From Bacteroidales bacterium (GTDB lineage: Bacteria; Bacteroidota; Bacteroidia; Bacteroidales; UBA12077): DNA of 64,000 nucleotides. The stretch is from contig JAEINU010000002.1 in assembly GCA_016342685.1 (NCBI GenBank), forward strand, positions 143,085-207,084, in the 5' to 3' direction. The notes below the pieces were generated by a model that made no database searches, was not told the origin of the DNA, and saw nothing but the letters and a program-made list of their open reading frames with translations. The translations under genes and the position numbers were made by a program. The stretch's first letter is position 1. Every line of letters starts with the position of its first letter. Positions 36,042 to 42,785 of the stretch are shown here, piece by piece.

Positions 36042-36290
36042 ATGGAGTTTAAAAAATTAGAGATAAAACAAGACGGTAGTTGGTTTAAAAGATTAATTAC
36101 TTCGGCGCATTTCAAAAAATCAATACTATTTATACTAATTGGTGCAACTGCTGGTTTTATATTCACTTATTTTTCGGAAGGAAAAGAATTCTCACAAATA
36201 GCTTCAAAGGATATTTATACGAATATGTTTACAGGTGCTTTTGTTGGATTCTTTTTAACCAATAGTCCTTGTGCTCGAGGAAAATGCTAA
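36042..36290 (+). CDS. small membrane protein with C-terminal cysteine pair
   Basis: 82 residues. A soluble N-terminus (1-25) precedes two hydrophobic helices (about 28-46 and 65-76), and the C-terminus is N-S-P-C-A-R-G-K-C. The glycine-rich first helix (L-I-G-A-T-A-G-F-I-F) and the terminal C-x4-C suggest an inner-membrane protein with a possible metal or redox site, but I do not recognise a characterised family. A good promoter box lies 22 bp upstream. The stop overlaps the convergent LytTR regulator gene by 4 bp. It is monocistronic. Confidence 0.75.
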   Translation: MEFKKLEIKQDGSWFKRLITSAHFKKSILFILIGATAGFIFTYFSEGKEFSQIASKDIYTNMFTGAFVGFFLTNSPCARGKC

Positions 36291-37000
36291 ATAAAACGTT
36301 TACCTAAGAATTCCTGGAACTTCTCTTTATATTGTTCGCTTACTGGAATGTAAGTTTTATCGAAAATTATGCGGCTGCGTTCAATGGTTTGTACTTCGTT
36401 TAGATTTACAATAAAGGAACGATGCACACGCATAAATCTTTCTGAGGGCAGTTTTTCTTCTAATGACTTTAGACTCATCAAGCTCAATACCTGTTTTTCT
36501 TCTTTTAGAACTATTTTAACGTACTCACGCAATCCTTCTATATAAAGAATCTCATTTAAATCTATACGGCGAATCTTGTACTCCGATTTTACAAATAAGT
36601 AATCATCCTTAGATTCACCTTTTGAACCCGAGTTTTGAATTAATTCGAAGTGTGTTTTTGCTTTATTTGCAGATTTTAGGAACTCATCGTAACCAAAAGG
36701 TTTTAATATATAGTCTAGCGCATCAACTTTAAAACCCTCCAAAGCATATTCCTGATAAGCTGTTGTAAATATTATTTTCTGTTCTTTATTTAATGATTTT
36801 ACAAAATCAATTCCTGTAAGGTCGGGCATTTGAATATCAACAAACATCAAATCTACCTTTTCTTTAGATAAAACCTCCATTGCTTCGAAAGCACTTTTAC
36901 ACGAAGCAACTAGCTCCAAAAAGGGAGTTTTTTCAACAAAACTTGATACTTGTTTTAATGCCAGAGGCTCATCGTCGATTGTTATACATCTAATTATCAT
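36287..37000 (-). CDS. LytTR family response regulator
   Basis: 237 residues. The receiver domain (1-120) has Asp9-Asp10, the phosphoacceptor Asp55 in M-F-V-D-I-Q-M-P and Lys102 in L-K-P-F. The C-terminal LytTR DNA-binding domain (about 135-235) has I-L-Y-I-E-G-L-R-E-Y-V-K and F-M-R-V-H-R-S-F-I-V-N-L. It is co-encoded with the sensor kinase upstream (11-bp overlap), a standard LytS/AlgR-type pair. The CotH/VTC/DUF4956 genes follow upstream on the same strand and are candidate targets. No LytTR operator was identified. Confidence 0.94.
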   Translation of the reverse strand: MIIRCITIDDEPLALKQVSSFVEKTPFLELVASCKSAFEAMEVLSKEKVDLMFVDIQMPDLTGIDFVKSLNKEQKIIFTTAYQEYALEGFKVDALDYILKPFGYDEFLKSANKAKTHFELIQNSGSKGESKDDYLFVKSEYKIRRIDLNEILYIEGLREYVKIVLKEEKQVLSLMSLKSLEEKLPSERFMRVHRSFIVNLNEVQTIERSRIIFDKTYIPVSEQYKEKFQEFLGKRFI

Positions 37001-38138
37001 CGGTAGGAATTTTAAGGTAAACTTTAAACTCAGAATCTAACTCAATAATATCTAACTTATAATTATCATTATATAAAAGATTTAGTCGTTTCTTAATATT
37101 CTCTAATCCAACACCTGAATATGGGTTTGTGATTTTATTCTGAACCGATAATGAATTATTGCACCTAAACTCAATATAATTAGCTCTTTGATCTAAATCA
37201 ATTTGGATAAATGATTTCTGGTTATAACTTATTCCGTGTTTAAATGCATTTTCGACAAAGGAAATAAAAAGAAAAGGATGCAATTTAACATCTACACTAT
37301 CTACCTGAATATTAAGATTGATATCTACACTTTCATCAACCCGCAATTTCATCAGTTTAACATAACTCTGCAAGAATTCCATTTCTTTATTGAGAGTTGT
37401 TTCCCCTCTATCTGATTCATAAAGTAAATAACGCATCATTTTCGATAAGGTAACAATTGATGCTTGAGCATCTTTTGAATCAATATCAATTTGTGCGTGT
37501 ATATTATTTAAGGTATTCATAAAAAAATGCGGACTAATCTGATTTTGAAGAAATGCTAATTCCGATTTTAAATGTTCCTTTTCTAATTCTCGTTTAGTTT
37601 GTTCGTCTTTAAACCACTTATTGGTTACTTTTATTGCCACGTTAAACCCAACAACTAACCACGCAATAATCATCTGATTAAAAATACTTAAAATGCGATT
37701 TCTAGGCATAGGATCTTGTTGATCTGGTCCTAATGGGCGAGGTCTTATACCTTGAGCTTGTTGTCCTGGACGAAATGGTCTTTGACCTTGGGAAAAAGGT
37801 CTTCGATCAATTATTTCTGATGATTGATTTCCCTCAATAAAATCCCGAAGTAACGGGAAGACAAATTCCCAAATGTAGACTAATAACAAACTAATTATTA
37901 CAACTGAAAACAAATACGTTGCAGTTTTTCCTTTAAAAAGAAACTCAGGAAGCAACCACACTGTATTTATAACAAAGATAATAACAAAAGGAACCATTCT
38001 CCCCCAACCTAAAAATATTTGCTTATCGAACCTACCTGTATTTGAAGTTGAAACAAGAACAGGAATAATAAAGATCACTAACCACACAATAAGATATATA
38101 GCAAATTCAGGAACCTTTTGACTAGTTTTTATATTCAT
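36990..38138 (-). CDS. LytS-type sensor histidine kinase (His_kinase family) with Arg/Pro/Gln-rich loop
   Basis: 382 residues. There are four predicted membrane helices (about 12-30, 48-66, 74-96, 150-172) and a His_kinase domain with Q-I-S-P-H-F-F-M-N-T-L-N-N, in which His204 is the phosphorylated residue. A C-terminal HATPase carries F-V-E-N-A-F-K-H-G and G-V-G-L-E-N-I-K-K-R-L. Between helices 3 and 4, residues 108-148 are rich in Arg, Pro, Gln and Gly. With an even number of helices this loop should face the periplasm, against the positive-inside rule, and may be the sensing part. It overlaps the LytTR regulator gene by 11 bp. Confidence 0.92.
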   Translation of the reverse strand: MNIKTSQKVPEFAIYLIVWLVIFIIPVLVSTSNTGRFDKQIFLGWGRMVPFVIIFVINTVWLLPEFLFKGKTATYLFSVVIISLLLVYIWEFVFPLLRDFIEGNQSSEIIDRRPFSQGQRPFRPGQQAQGIRPRPLGPDQQDPMPRNRILSIFNQMIIAWLVVGFNVAIKVTNKWFKDEQTKRELEKEHLKSELAFLQNQISPHFFMNTLNNIHAQIDIDSKDAQASIVTLSKMMRYLLYESDRGETTLNKEMEFLQSYVKLMKLRVDESVDINLNIQVDSVDVKLHPFLFISFVENAFKHGISYNQKSFIQIDLDQRANYIEFRCNNSLSVQNKITNPYSGVGLENIKKRLNLLYNDNYKLDIIELDSEFKVYLKIPTDDN

Positions 38139-38245
38139 ATTTATTGATAATAATTATTTGAGTTTGTTATAAAGATAAATCATTTTCACTAAATGATATT
38201 TAATAGATTTTTAAGCTCTTTCTATAAATTTATTATACTTAGACA

Positions 38246-38310
38246 CCTTTCGACAAGCTAAGGATGACAATATTTTGAAAGAGAAATGTCATGCTCAGCC
38301 TGTCGAAGTA
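38246..38310. repeat. short intergenic inverted repeat (GTCATGCTCAGCCTGTCGAAG type)
   Basis: Arms at 38247-38269 and 38287-38308 match with a few differences and a 17-nt centre. The right arm resembles a motif I associate with dispersed intergenic repeats in many Bacteroidota genomes. It lies between the histidine kinase and the small exported protein, both on the minus strand. Confidence 0.6.
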
Positions 38311-38317
38311 TGTTATT

Positions 38318-38716
38318 CTAATTTTGTTTTGGAGGTCTTTGTCCTTGGTCGTTCCTTCTTTTTTGAGGTTGTGGTCTTAATCGACATGAGATTTTTAAAT
38401 ATTCCTCGTATTGATCTTCTGATAATGCGGCTTTAATTTTCTGATCTCGTTCGTTTTCATAAGTATCTATTACAGATTTATCAGGACAATAACCTTCAAT
38501 TCTTTCGTTTTCGACTTGAGTAAAAAACTCGCTAAATGCATCTTCAATTACCACTTTTTGAAAATCGTTTATATCAATTTTTTTCTCAATCGTTAAAATA
38601 ACTTTAGTTAATCGTTCTTCATTTGTTGCTTGCTTTCTATTTCCTTGTTGTGCGAAAGCACCTGTTGCTATTAGCATAATTACTAGTACTAGTAAATTCT
38701 TAATCTTTGTTTTCAT
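38318..38716 (-). CDS. small periplasmic protein with Arg/Gln/Pro-rich tail
   Basis: 132 residues. The signal peptide (1-22) is cleaved after G-A-F-A. The mature part is helical (E-E-R-L-T-K-V-I-L-T-I-E-K-K and A-L-S-E-D-Q-Y-E-E-Y-L), somewhat like the LTXXQ/Spy-type helical periplasmic proteins, with two cysteines. The C-terminal 22 residues (R-P-Q-P-Q-K-R-R type) are basic and proline-rich and resemble the periplasmic loop of the neighbouring sensor kinase. It lies 11 bp after the CotH gene on the same strand. Function unknown; membership of the CotH/VTC group is inferred. Confidence 0.8.
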   Translation of the reverse strand: MKTKIKNLLVLVIMLIATGAFAQQGNRKQATNEERLTKVILTIEKKIDINDFQKVVIEDAFSEFFTQVENERIEGYCPDKSVIDTYENERDQKIKAALSEDQYEEYLKISCRLRPQPQKRRNDQGQRPPKQN

Positions 38717-38727
38717 ATTCTTACTTT

Positions 38728-40206
38728 TTATTTTTTTGATAAATAGTTTATTACCGCATCGTGTCGTTCATCAACATGATTATTTAATTCTGATAAAGAA
38801 TTTGTAAAATCGGATGATGATCTTAAAAATGAATAACCAGGTTGTTCCGCTTCTGATCCAACCACATAATCAGAAATCAAATTATGATAGTACGAATAGG
38901 TTTCTTTTATCTTAGATGATTCAAAGGCGTCATTTATTACACTTTCCAAATAATTTTCGTACAAAGTTTCATATTCCGGAATATCTATTAAATATCTAAT
39001 TAATGGCCAACTGCTTGTAACCTCATTCATTGAAAAAGACAATGGTTCTCTTTTACCACCGTAAAGAGCTTCATTATTATCCCAGGGAATCCATACTATT
39101 TTGCTTGTATATGGATTCGTATATAAATAGTAATTATGACTCATAACTCCATAAGTATCCCAATTCTGAATAACTGTATTTGTAGCCAGCCATTTTAAGA
39201 AATTATCTACATCAAGAATAGCTTCTAATTCTGTTTTCCATTGTTCAAGATCTGTTGTTCTCAAACTAGAATGTAAACTATTATATAAAGATTCAACATC
39301 GCTATAATCGGCAATATCTTCATTTGTTTTTAAATCGAAATCGGAAGTATTGAAAGTTCCATAAGCAAATGTAGCAGCTTCATTTTCGGGTTTATAACAG
39401 TTTCCTGCATTACTACCAAATTGTTCTTTGAGCATAGCATCTTCAACTATTTCGGTGGCAGTGTATAATCCAAAATAAATTGGACCATCTCCATAATCAA
39501 CAAAAATCTGATAATAAGCAGTCTGCGGAGCTTTTAATCCTGCATCTCTGAAAATATCGGCTGCAACTTTCTCATGCATAAATGACTGATCGTCGTAATT
39601 ATTCGAAAATGCCATTTTCTGAAAGCCATAAAATCTTTGATTTTTAATTTCAGGATAATCATCTTCAAACTCATCGAAATCGAATCGAAAAGCAAGTTTC
39701 ATACATCCACTTTGCCATGTTGAACGTAAACTTGAATTACCCTTAAATCGGACTCCCACATTATACCATTCAATATTATTAAAGAATACAGATGAAGCAG
39801 AAAAAATTGGAGTAAAATCTGTTTCGCCAGCCCCACCTCCACCAGGGCCAGGAGGTACAAAATCATCGTTAAAATTTGCAAATATTGGTGGTGCAGGATT
39901 TTCACCACCAGCACCAAATTCACCAATATTATCGCTTAGATCTTGAAGCATTGCATCCCAATCTTCCGAAGTGAATACAATATCAATTCTATTCACTTTA
40001 TCTTGTGGATAAACTACATTATAGTTCGGATAAATATCATCTGAATGTGTTTCTGATGTCCAATCGTCTAATCCTGTTCCTGGAACAATTGTATCTTCAT
40101 CCGCCTTTTCAACTTCGACTTCTTTATAACACGAGGTATTTATAAAAAGTACCGAAATTATAATAAGTAATAACCCATTCATCTTTTTTTTATTTTTAGA
40201 AATCAT
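38728..40206 (-). CDS. CotH kinase family lipoprotein
   Basis: 492 residues. The N-terminal helix ends with I-N-T-S-C, a lipobox placing the protein at a membrane outside the cytoplasm. The CotH domain (about 70-480) shows V-R-F-K-G-N-S-S-L-R, the catalytic-loop-like W-D-T-Y-G-V-M-S-H-N-Y-Y-L-Y near 352 and the metal-binding W-I-P-W-D-N-N-E near 373. CotH proteins are secreted atypical kinases; the Bacillus spore protein phosphorylates coat proteins. Residues 95-135 hold a glycine/proline-rich insert. It is encoded 18 bp after a DUF2490 gene, with the VTC and DUF4956 genes next upstream. Confidence 0.93.
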   Translation of the reverse strand: MISKNKKKMNGLLLIIISVLFINTSCYKEVEVEKADEDTIVPGTGLDDWTSETHSDDIYPNYNVVYPQDKVNRIDIVFTSEDWDAMLQDLSDNIGEFGAGGENPAPPIFANFNDDFVPPGPGGGGAGETDFTPIFSASSVFFNNIEWYNVGVRFKGNSSLRSTWQSGCMKLAFRFDFDEFEDDYPEIKNQRFYGFQKMAFSNNYDDQSFMHEKVAADIFRDAGLKAPQTAYYQIFVDYGDGPIYFGLYTATEIVEDAMLKEQFGSNAGNCYKPENEAATFAYGTFNTSDFDLKTNEDIADYSDVESLYNSLHSSLRTTDLEQWKTELEAILDVDNFLKWLATNTVIQNWDTYGVMSHNYYLYTNPYTSKIVWIPWDNNEALYGGKREPLSFSMNEVTSSWPLIRYLIDIPEYETLYENYLESVINDAFESSKIKETYSYYHNLISDYVVGSEAEQPGYSFLRSSSDFTNSLSELNNHVDERHDAVINYLSKK

Positions 40207-40224
40207 ATTAATAGTATTTAAATA

Positions 40225-40917
40225 TTAAAACGAGAATTTATATCCAACACCTAAAATATAAGTGTCCTTATTGTAAGATTGATTTAACTCATTATCGATC
40301 CTATAAAAAAGTTCTATATCGCCGTAGTTTTTCATTGAGTATTCTAATCCTAATGTCCAGCGGAGTTTGCTAAGTTCAGTAGTATTTATGTCGTCTATTT
40401 GACGATATAATTCAACATCGAAAAAGGGATCGATTTTAAAACTCTTGATATTGTAATCAACCGAAAACTTATTACGCAGATTATATAAATTGCTGTTCGA
40501 TTGACTTGTTAGAAAATCTTCGCCTTTATTTTGAAATCGGATTCGATACGCCAAAGTAAATCGATTAATTTTATGTTTGTATTGCAGATCGGTATTCCAC
40601 CTGAACTGCGTTTGAAAATTACCTTCTGAATCTTTATTCTGATAAAAACGATAATTGGCTCCTACAGTAAAATGCTTATTTATTTTATAATCAAGCCCAA
40701 GATCAGCAAGATAAACATCAAACTGCGAGATATCTTTTGAGAAGCGTATTTCTTGATCCAAAGTTATCTTCCAATGCTTATTTATTTTTTTTGATATTCC
40801 AATACTTGACCACTGTTCTATATCTCCAGTTACTTTTGTTACTTGCGCATTGGATTTAACTATAATACAGTTGGTTAATAAGATAATTGCAAAAATATTT
40901 CGAATTTTATATTTCAT
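40225..40917 (-). CDS. DUF2490 family outer-membrane protein
   Basis: 230 residues. The signal peptide (about 1-24, ending S-N-A-Q) is followed by alternating amphipathic strands such as W-K-I-T-L-D-Q-E-I-R-F, A-Y-R-I-R-F-Q-N-K-G and L-G-L-E-Y-S-M-K. The last residue is Phe after Y-K-F-S, the usual end of an outer-membrane beta barrel. Roughly ten to twelve strands are expected. DUF2490 proteins have no assigned reaction. It is located 18 bp upstream of cotH on the same strand, which suggests it handles or anchors material for that locus at the outer membrane. Confidence 0.85.
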   Translation of the reverse strand: MKYKIRNIFAIILLTNCIIVKSNAQVTKVTGDIEQWSSIGISKKINKHWKITLDQEIRFSKDISQFDVYLADLGLDYKINKHFTVGANYRFYQNKDSEGNFQTQFRWNTDLQYKHKINRFTLAYRIRFQNKGEDFLTSQSNSNLYNLRNKFSVDYNIKSFKIDPFFDVELYRQIDDINTTELSKLRWTLGLEYSMKNYGDIELFYRIDNELNQSYNKDTYILGVGYKFSF

Positions 40918-40969
40918 AGTAAGCTGGCTTTTAGATATTGGTTGTTAACTATTAGCTTTTGGCTCTTAG

Positions 40970-41092
40970 TGTCAAGTCAAGCTTTAAATTTCGGGTTGAC
41001 CTGACAGCGTTTTTTAAAACCTGTCAGAGTCTGGAAGTAAAACTCTACCAGATCATACTGATTCTGTCAGGATTTCAACTCTTGACTTGACA
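40970..41092. repeat. MITE-like inverted repeat element
   Basis: Perfect 12-bp terminal inverted repeats TGTCAAGTCAAG (40970-40981) and its complement (41081-41092) enclose about 99 bp. Inside are nested CCTGACAG/CTGTCAGG and TCTGG/CCAGA repeats. It occupies most of the 200-bp gap between the DUF4956 and DUF2490 genes, and may place a hairpin in a shared transcript. Confidence 0.65.
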
Positions 41093-41117
41093 TTAGCTAT
41101 TAGCTGTTAAAATTATT

Positions 41118-41825
41118 TTAAATCATATCTTGTTCATATGAATCATCTTCTTCGTGAATTCCTGTTCCGTTATAATAATAGATTTTAACTTCGGCAGTGT
41201 CTCTTAAAAAGTTAATCTTCCCTACTTCTACTCTATTAATGAGTAGCCCTGTGCGATCTTCAAGATCTTTCATTAACAAACTATAATTCTCTGGTTTAAT
41301 TAAATCAATCTTTTCAAGAATAATTTTTTTGCTGGTTTCATTTTTTAATAGCCATAATCTTTCTAAACCCCAAACAATAGCAATTATCGCCATATTTGTG
41401 AATAGCAATTCGGCATAACTAACTTTTTTATTAGATAATGCATTAATTACCGATAAGCCAATTATTATAAAAAGGTATGTCATTTCTTTAATTGGAATGG
41501 TAGTGGTTCGATAACGAATAATACCAAAAACAGCAAACAAGCCTAATGCAAACCCCAATTCAAGTTTTACGCTCTCTAATAGAAAACAAAGCAAGAATAC
41601 GGTTGTACTAATGAGAATGTAGGTAAAAAGGTAATCTTTGCGTTTTGTGGCATTGTAATAAAGCACTCTTACAATTACCAAACAAACAATTAGATTTAAT
41701 CCAAAACGCGATACCAGTTCAATAAAATCTTCAACATCAATAATTTTTATATTAAATAGCTTAAGTTCGGATAAACCAATATCCATTAACGGAATAGCTG
41801 ATAATAATGAATTTAACATTTCCAT
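41118..41825 (-). CDS. DUF4956 family membrane protein
   Basis: 235 residues. About four to five membrane helices lie between residues 40 and 155, with the DUF4956 signature G-L-F-A-V-F-G-I-I-R-Y-R-T-T-T-I-P-I-K-E near 95-114. A cytosolic C-terminal domain of about 75 residues follows, ending in a very acidic tail (H-E-E-D-D-S-Y-E-Q-D). DUF4956 genes are known to travel with VTC-domain polyphosphate polymerases and CotH, as they do here (11 bp after the VTC gene). A role as the membrane partner or channel for the VTC protein is inferred. Confidence 0.9.
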   Translation of the reverse strand: MEMLNSLLSAIPLMDIGLSELKLFNIKIIDVEDFIELVSRFGLNLIVCLVIVRVLYYNATKRKDYLFTYILISTTVFLLCFLLESVKLELGFALGLFAVFGIIRYRTTTIPIKEMTYLFIIIGLSVINALSNKKVSYAELLFTNMAIIAIVWGLERLWLLKNETSKKIILEKIDLIKPENYSLLMKDLEDRTGLLINRVEVGKINFLRDTAEVKIYYYNGTGIHEEDDSYEQDMI

Positions 41826-41836
41826 AGTTTTTTAGT

Positions 41837-42583
41837 TTATGCAGATAGTTTATTAATTAATAAGATTTTAGATTTAAATCGATTTGATTTTAAATGAGGA
41901 TAAATCATTGATGTTCCAATACAATATTTACTGAAACTATTTGAGCGAACTTTATGCTTTCTTAGAACCTGAATTACATCAGAGTTAATAGAATATTTAT
42001 CTTGTTTTACTTCTATTATAGCAAGTAAAGGCAATGTCCCAATGCCACCATTCCCGTCCTCAAATTTCAATTTGAAATCTATCGTTACTCTTTCGGTTTG
42101 ATTGCATAAAGTAATTCTCTGAAAAGTATTAATAAGTTTTATTTGGAGTTCTTCTGATGAGAATGGTGATTTATAATCTAAAAAATCAATTTCCTTATTT
42201 GTAAACCAATTAAAACTTTCGGTTTTTACAATTCTTGATTTTAGTGTCCTCCTTTTGTTATTTTTAAACTTAACCTCTAAGAAATTTAAATCAGAATTAA
42301 TGTATTCTCGCTCGCGAACTTTATACCTGTTCAATTTTCCATTCTGATGCTCAAGAAACATTCTAAAATCGAATGTATCGTAATATTTTGTTCGGTACGA
42401 CATAAGTCGTTGATCATTAATTTCAAGAACTTTATAAAACTTTAAAAGGTCGTTCAAAACATCTTTTAGTTTAAAAATTGAGCAAATGAATTTTGTGTCA
42501 ACTCGATTTAAAAGCTTTACGTTATCCATTTCTTTTAAAGAAGTGGTATTAAACTGATTGATTATATTCTCGATTGCTTTCAT
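41837..42583 (-). CDS. VTC domain polyphosphate polymerase family protein
   Basis: 248 residues. This is the VTC tunnel fold: M-S-Y-R-T-K-Y-Y-D-T near 62-71 and N-R-Y-K-V-R-E-R-E-Y near 85-94 supply the basic residues that hold phosphate chains. F-L-E-V-K-F-K near 100 and A-I-I-E-V-K-Q-D-K-Y near 196-205 supply the acidic metal ligands and further lysines. Yeast Vtc4 uses this fold to make polyphosphate from ATP. The bacterial protein is soluble and probably docks with the DUF4956 membrane protein encoded 11 bp downstream. It is the first gene of the VTC-DUF4956-DUF2490-CotH group. Confidence 0.9.
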   Translation of the reverse strand: MKAIENIINQFNTTSLKEMDNVKLLNRVDTKFICSIFKLKDVLNDLLKFYKVLEINDQRLMSYRTKYYDTFDFRMFLEHQNGKLNRYKVREREYINSDLNFLEVKFKNNKRRTLKSRIVKTESFNWFTNKEIDFLDYKSPFSSEELQIKLINTFQRITLCNQTERVTIDFKLKFEDGNGGIGTLPLLAIIEVKQDKYSINSDVIQVLRKHKVRSNSFSKYCIGTSMIYPHLKSNRFKSKILLINKLSA

Positions 42584-42785
42584 ATATCATAGCCTTTCTT
42601 TCTAAAGCAATAATACGCCCATGACGGACTGTATGAAAATCAAATCAATATTTGGAGATATTTAATCTACAGAAAGGAATATTTTATCTATGAAAAGAAT
42701 TAAAATATTTTGTTATTTATTAGAACAACTAACAAGATAGATATTTGTAACGTACGTAAAAATAAGCTATAGGTGTAGTTTTATA

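Follow-up and report, generated by a model that had tools for sequence, protein, structure and literature searches.

A LytS/LytTR pair that probably switches on its own VTC/CotH envelope operon through a candidate three-repeat operator in a Bacteroidales bacterium

Signaling systems of the LytS/LytTR type, among them AgrA, YpdA/YpdB, and BtsS/BtsR, combine a PF06580 sensor with a LytTR regulator and act at direct repeats with a period of about 21 bp just upstream of a promoter (PMC4847170, PMC4227749). Typically, the site holds two repeats of 9 to 11 nucleotides (nt) with 11 to 13 nt between them (PMC4847170). Gene groups that unite VTC, DUF4956, and CotH are widespread in bacteria. Their association is known, as a preliminary description of the locus studied here had said: Gram-positive Pel clusters contain CotH, polyphosphate polymerase, DUF4956, and DUF4832 accessory genes (PMC7112168). 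In a literature search of open-licence papers, we found none on a regulator belonging to such operons. Here we analyze a 64,000-nt stretch of DNA from a Bacteroidales bacterium (contig JAEINU010000002.1), called the window below. On its minus strand, the genes follow the order VTC-DUF4956-DUF2490-CotH-Spy-like-LytS-LytTR, and from the sequence it is probable that the LytS/LytTR pair switches on this operon, its own, via a candidate operator of three repeats. We read the operon as autoregulated because of the strand and position at which the pair is linked to it, the clade of its kinase, a promoter element that follows that clade, and the LytTR-like spacing of that element.

With the known LytS/LytTR systems the locus shares the PF06580 sensor, the LytTR regulator, and a candidate direct-repeat operator of about the same period just upstream of a promoter. 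It differs from them in having three half-sites where two are typical, in a four-helix sensor with a disordered Pro-rich loop, and in its target, a VTC/CotH envelope operon. The regulator falls outside BtsR, scoring 134.7 bits against the NF008677 cut-off of 246. Pfam profiles were scored against curated or gathering cut-offs throughout. The pair and the promoter elements are as follows.

36287..37000, minus strand: LytTR response regulator (PF00072, 3.1e-21, and PF04397, 8.4e-23, both over cut-off)
36990..38138, minus strand: LytS-type histidine kinase, predicted to have four membrane helices and a Pro-rich disordered extracytoplasmic loop (PF06580, 1.3e-23; structure model; tree)
42690-42682, minus strand: candidate half-site R1, TAGATAAAA (sequence; shuffles of 21- and 42-bp periodicity; spacing control)
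42669-42661, minus strand: candidate half-site R2, TAGATTAAA (same evidence; R1 and R2 together make up 42661..42690)
42635..42649, minus strand: conserved box, ATTGATTTGATTTTC, reaching the -33 region (kept in the genus, in L058, L200, and L231, and in held-out loci)
42648-42640, minus strand: candidate half-site R3, TTGATTTGA, inside the conserved box and conserved with it
42608..42615, minus strand: putative -7 box, TATTATTG, 19 nt past the conserved box (equal spacing in all nine training sites; TAnnTTTG consensus)

The two genes of the pair share 11 bp; that of the regulator sits just beyond the span covered by the preliminary description.

To see how often such a pair adjoins these genes, we surveyed 189 non-identical loci, each strongly matching DUF4956; they derive from 80 loci in public genomes and 120 regions sampled across the order and the phylum. 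VTC is adjacent in 166 of them, and CotH lies at most four genes away in 55. DUF2490, earlier thought a less usual addition to this company, lies within three genes in 135 of the 189 and was ruled out as an unusual partner. Same-strand LytS-LytTR pairs stand near DUF4956 in 20 loci, and one further locus has the pair on the opposite strand. Counted per gene, a pair is found at 18 of the 588 same-strand genes that lie one to six places downstream of DUF4956. The corresponding counts are 1 of 421 for opposite-strand genes, 4 of 688 for same-strand genes upstream, and 0 of 758 for genes at a greater distance. Five of the 20 loci belong to the window's genus and most others bear different family codes; at L119 and L267 the kinase is of a different subfamily. 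Within the genus, the pair remains with the VTC operon wherever the assembly allows a view. This is the kind of neighborhood survey that the preliminary description had called for, and its outcome is that VTC/DUF4956 operons, both in the genus and across several other families, recurrently include the LytS/LytTR pair as a dedicated component. That the pair is a chance neighbor or passenger of the VTC genes is very improbable. About nine in ten VTC-DUF4956 loci do lack an adjacent pair, as would suit a passenger, but strand and position bias, clustering in one kinase clade, and a common promoter element all speak against such a reading, and the counts (18/588 against 1/421 and 0/758) rule out chance neighborhood.

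Some relatives are arranged differently around the pair. Mutually similar small genes (MNxLKIEATTFTPEI...), perhaps of the DUF1987/SiaC type, lie 3′ of the LytTR gene in L050 (17169-17582), L051 (12684-13079), L053 (17395-17820), and L131 (4458-4868); the window has none at that position. In L077, L085, L098, L101, and L106, Carboxylicivirga-type DUF4956 genes lack VTC; next to them comes a convergent LytTR gene that has no kinase beside it. The window's own genome has a second, genus-typical VTC-DUF4956 pair (G000:C38:383249-383845; L021, L135), and neither a kinase pair nor a strong promoter element was seen nearby.

A tree of 86 kinase domains places the window kinase in a clade of 18 (support, 100/99), made up of 12 VTC-linked members from several families and 6 others. 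The VTC label changes 8 times on this tree, compared with 18.1 times when shuffled, and 0 of 500 shuffles were as low; near-copies inflate this clustering, yet the clade spans families. Clade kinases without VTC keep related company. The operons of L128 and L129 encode an Lcl_C-type lipoprotein, a metallophosphatase, and a Spy-like protein; that of L170 (found in L201 and L362) has Lcl_C genes together with CotH; and L172 (L199, L363) is located before a DUF2490 gene. The L360 operon joins both kinds: Lcl_C, an LTXXQ protein, Lcl_C, metallophosphatase, DUF2490, CotH, VTC, DUF4956, kinase, and regulator.

The candidate operator, which the preliminary description did not contain, consists of three direct 9-bp half-sites, TWGATNAAA, which repeat every 21 bp exactly and are located 66 bp upstream of VTC. 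Its three 9-nt repeats and 12-nt spacers are within the ranges of LytTR sites. VTC promoters of the genus share a block that ends in the conserved box and is followed 19 nt on by a TAnTATTG box, and those of L058, L200, and L231 are alike, with the same spacing. For comparison, the sigma-A -7 box of flavobacteria is TAnnTTTG (PMC9723704). An initial test of the motif, applied to every VTC upstream region, failed to distinguish linked loci from unlinked ones (p = 0.22), because several operons begin further upstream and kinases outside the clade go without the box. Since the operon-start scan and the upstream half-sites were added after this failure, it is the held-out and spacing controls that carry weight. 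Two further half-sites emerged on aligning the sites, exactly 21 and 42 bp upstream, and the periodicity at neither distance was reached in 2000 shuffles.

Nine sites, from the window's genus and from L058, L200, and L231, were used to train the motif model. In held-out loci of the clade, the site that it ranked first or second lay at -77 relative to VTC in L315, at -69 relative to the gene that opens the operon in L129 and L128, at -67 in L360, at -63 in L362, and at -148 relative to the kinase in L363. A three-repeat model run over 4.03 megabases (Mb) also picks out the VTC operons of L359 and L361, with sites at -65 and -67, respectively, of their first genes. In the same 4.03 Mb, there were 16 held-out promoter matches at a spacing of 21, compared with 0 to 3 at spacings of 17-20 or 22-25, and shifting the -7 box reduced the 16 to between 1 and 4; 2.4% of random positions fall in such promoter windows. 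In the window's genome (4.77 Mb), the perfect consensus occurs only once, at the VTC promoter. Of two one-mismatch matches, one precedes a distal Lcl_C lipoprotein gene by 67 bp; we viewed the neighborhood of this gene over 3 kb. The Lcl_C family also heads the L129, L360, and L362 operons. Of the 19 genus genomes examined, 9 have a clade kinase and 10 do not; a perfect match is present in 7 of the former, 6 of these sites being from the training set, and in 0 of the latter.

Several results weigh against the autoregulated operon. The training set of the model is the window's genus and three other loci. The L128 site scores weakly, the L363 site is 148 bp out, and two clade members, at L173 and L174 (G538, G403), have no site. 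At the same threshold there were 16 further held-out matches away from promoters, so weak single matches are not trustworthy. The element is absent from VTC operons whose kinase falls outside the clade and present at some VTC operons that have no kinase next to them (L252, L301, L305, L052), which are perhaps served in trans. Internal promoters could fit in two gaps of the operon, 200 bp between DUF4956 and DUF2490 and 179 bp between the exported protein and the kinase. Finally, the Spy-like fold matches of the exported protein are no higher than those of unrelated helical bundles. We also considered that some other regulator, whether unrelated or a second LytTR protein acting in trans, binds the element and that the linked pair controls something else. 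Such a regulator would account for the VTC operons that carry the element with no kinase beside it and for the weaker matches that precede other LytS-type kinases. It is nevertheless unlikely: perfect sites in the genus track the clade kinase, the element follows the clade into operons without VTC (L129, L128, L362, L363), and the spacing is that of LytTR sites.

Weaker three-repeat matches lie before LytS-type kinases or their neighbors outside the clade, in L187, L184, L179, L352, and L207, which suggests that other Bacteroidota LytTR regulators share this type of half-site. In L315 (3503, minus) and L231 (12549, plus), the VTC element is paired with a second, divergent element before an opposite-strand neighbor, an exported protein or a lipoprotein.

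If the operon is autoregulated, the LytS-type kinase would phosphorylate the adjacent LytTR regulator, which would then bind the three half-sites and recruit RNA polymerase. Activation would extend to its own operon and to at least one distal gene, that of the Lcl_C lipoprotein. The four-helix membrane domain of the kinase and its long extracytoplasmic loop, Pro-rich and disordered, may serve together to sense a state of the envelope, and the Spy-like protein of the same operon could be the kinase's accessory or feedback partner. CpxP and ZraP are partners of this kind for kinases in unrelated systems.

An AlphaFold2 model of the kinase, of modest confidence (mean pLDDT, 68), has helices at residues 5-34, 37-67, 72-103, and 146-199, and residues 104-144, between the third and fourth, are disordered (pLDDT <50). 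H204, the histidine of the PHF motif, is invariant in 16 aligned kinases. Counting four membrane helices in the model puts the loop (residues 108-148 in the preliminary description, which took it to be periplasmic) on the extracytoplasmic side. The loop had also been called Arg/Pro/Gln-rich and basic. These three residues do make up 49% of it; its charge is modest, net +3 over 51 amino acids (aa). What VTC-linked loops have in common is length and proline, not basicity. Between the last two helices, the median length is 48.5 aa in VTC-linked kinases, 30.5 in close unlinked ones, and 21 in kinases selected only on their kinase domain, with proline at 19%, 12%, and 4%, respectively. Net charge in VTC-linked loops has a median of +2.5 and ranges from -4 to +6, with acidic loops in L111 and L294, and it does not differ from that of close unlinked kinases (p = 0.26); basicity was thus ruled out as a conserved VTC-linked trait. 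The test counted L043, on the same contig as L054, as unlinked and is therefore conservative. Equally P/R/Q-rich loops occur in kinases without VTC (L128, L129, L170, L172, L185).

These results bear on the proposal, made in the preliminary description, that the basic loop, and likewise the exported protein, contacts polyphosphate or another polyanion and that the kinase senses it. In its favor, the loop and the tail of the exported protein are both R/P/Q-rich in the genus, the operon includes VTC, and many loci link the pair to VTC. We nonetheless regard polyphosphate sensing as quite unlikely. VTC-linked loops vary in charge much as those of close unlinked kinases do, which undercuts polyanion contact as a general mechanism, and VTC is predicted to be an enzyme of the cytoplasm or membrane, with export of its product a further assumption. 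Operons without VTC have loops of this sort and the exported protein too. The proposal had been staked on relatives keeping the pair with the VTC genes and a basic loop; the pair is kept, and the loop is not reliably basic.

The remaining genes of the operon are as follows.

41837..42583, minus strand: VTC-domain protein, predicted polyphosphate polymerase (PF09359, 3.7e-18; conserved charged residues)
41118..41825, minus strand: DUF4956 membrane protein (PF16316, 1.4e-53)
40225..40917, minus strand: DUF2490 protein, predicted outer-membrane barrel (PF10677, 7.7e-25)
38728..40206, minus strand: CotH kinase-family lipoprotein (PF08757, 3e-63)
38318..38716, minus strand: small exported protein of 132 aa, predicted four-helix and Spy/CpxP-like, with an Arg/Pro/Gln-rich tail (relatives match DUF4890/LTXXQ; structure model; co-occurrence with the kinase)

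Gene order and the single orientation agree with what had been described, every open reading frame being in place on the minus strand. Six of the seven proteins exceed a Pfam cut-off; the exported protein alone has no match over a curated cut-off, with none to LTXXQ, DUF4890, or Metal_resist. Of its 22 aligned relatives, however, 9 match DUF4890, 8 match LTXXQ, and 3 match Metal_resist. Its profile describes a broad family, found in 94 of 295 genomes of the class, and a PDB sequence search with this profile found none. In the structure model, the helical core is confident and the tails are disordered; comparison of the model with known structures (Foldseek, VIA-align) turns up Spy, CnrX, and NccX, with Z scores of about 5 to 5.7 for Spy and CnrX, within the noise of unrelated helical bundles. 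The protein thus looks Spy/CpxP-like, short of a proven member, and its tail is Arg/Pro/Gln-rich, as had been noted. Its orthologues travel with the kinase, in the genus and also in the L128 and L129 operons, which lack VTC. Two relatives elsewhere are preceded by the promoter element (L101, -96; L207, -75). Like ZraPSR and CpxP-CpxAR, the locus sets a small exported helical protein of LTXXQ type beside a sensor kinase and regulator. Unlike them, its kinase and regulator are of the unrelated LytS/LytTR class, and its exported protein has no Pfam LTXXQ match.

As members of their families, VTC, with DUF4956 in the membrane, would make polyphosphate, and CotH would phosphorylate exported proteins. 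The window VTC protein scores 66.4 bits (gathering score, 23) and covers nearly the whole profile of the domain that it shares with the VTC polyphosphate polymerase of yeast, Vtc4; it differs from the latter as a single-domain bacterial protein with a separate DUF4956 membrane partner, and its polymerase activity is predicted. A PDB sequence search with the VTC profile found none. CotH scores 214.7 bits (gathering score, 23.8). CotH, polyphosphate polymerase, and DUF4956 are grouped here as in the Gram-positive Pel clusters (PMC7112168); in contrast to those, no Pel or DUF4832 gene was seen beside the operon, which has a DUF2490 barrel, a Spy-like protein, and its own LytS/LytTR pair. The spacer from the exported-protein gene to the kinase gene (38140-38317) holds an inverted repeat, CTTCGACAGGCTGAGCATGAC ... 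GTCATCCTTAGCTTGTCGAAAG, which may be a mobile repeat or a terminator, and that from DUF4956 to DUF2490 (40918-41117) holds a repeat-like stretch with several CTGACAG/CTGTCAG words; each occurs once in the window. A plasmid search gave no match.

Beyond this genome, the chances seem about even that a Bacteroidota-wide regulon exists, in which this LytS clade, with its disordered extracytoplasmic loop, and its Spy-like partner control CotH/VTC/DUF4956/DUF2490 and Lcl_C surface genes via a LytTR operator of three half-sites and 21-bp period. A dedicated regulator with a short, defined candidate operator makes the system testable: it names co-regulated genes, including the distal Lcl_C gene, the place of the promoter, and a kinase clade to disrupt. 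It also offers a route to learning when these bacteria make predicted polyphosphate and phosphorylate surface proteins. If the reading is true, polyphosphate synthesis and surface-protein phosphorylation would be switched jointly with surface lipoproteins.

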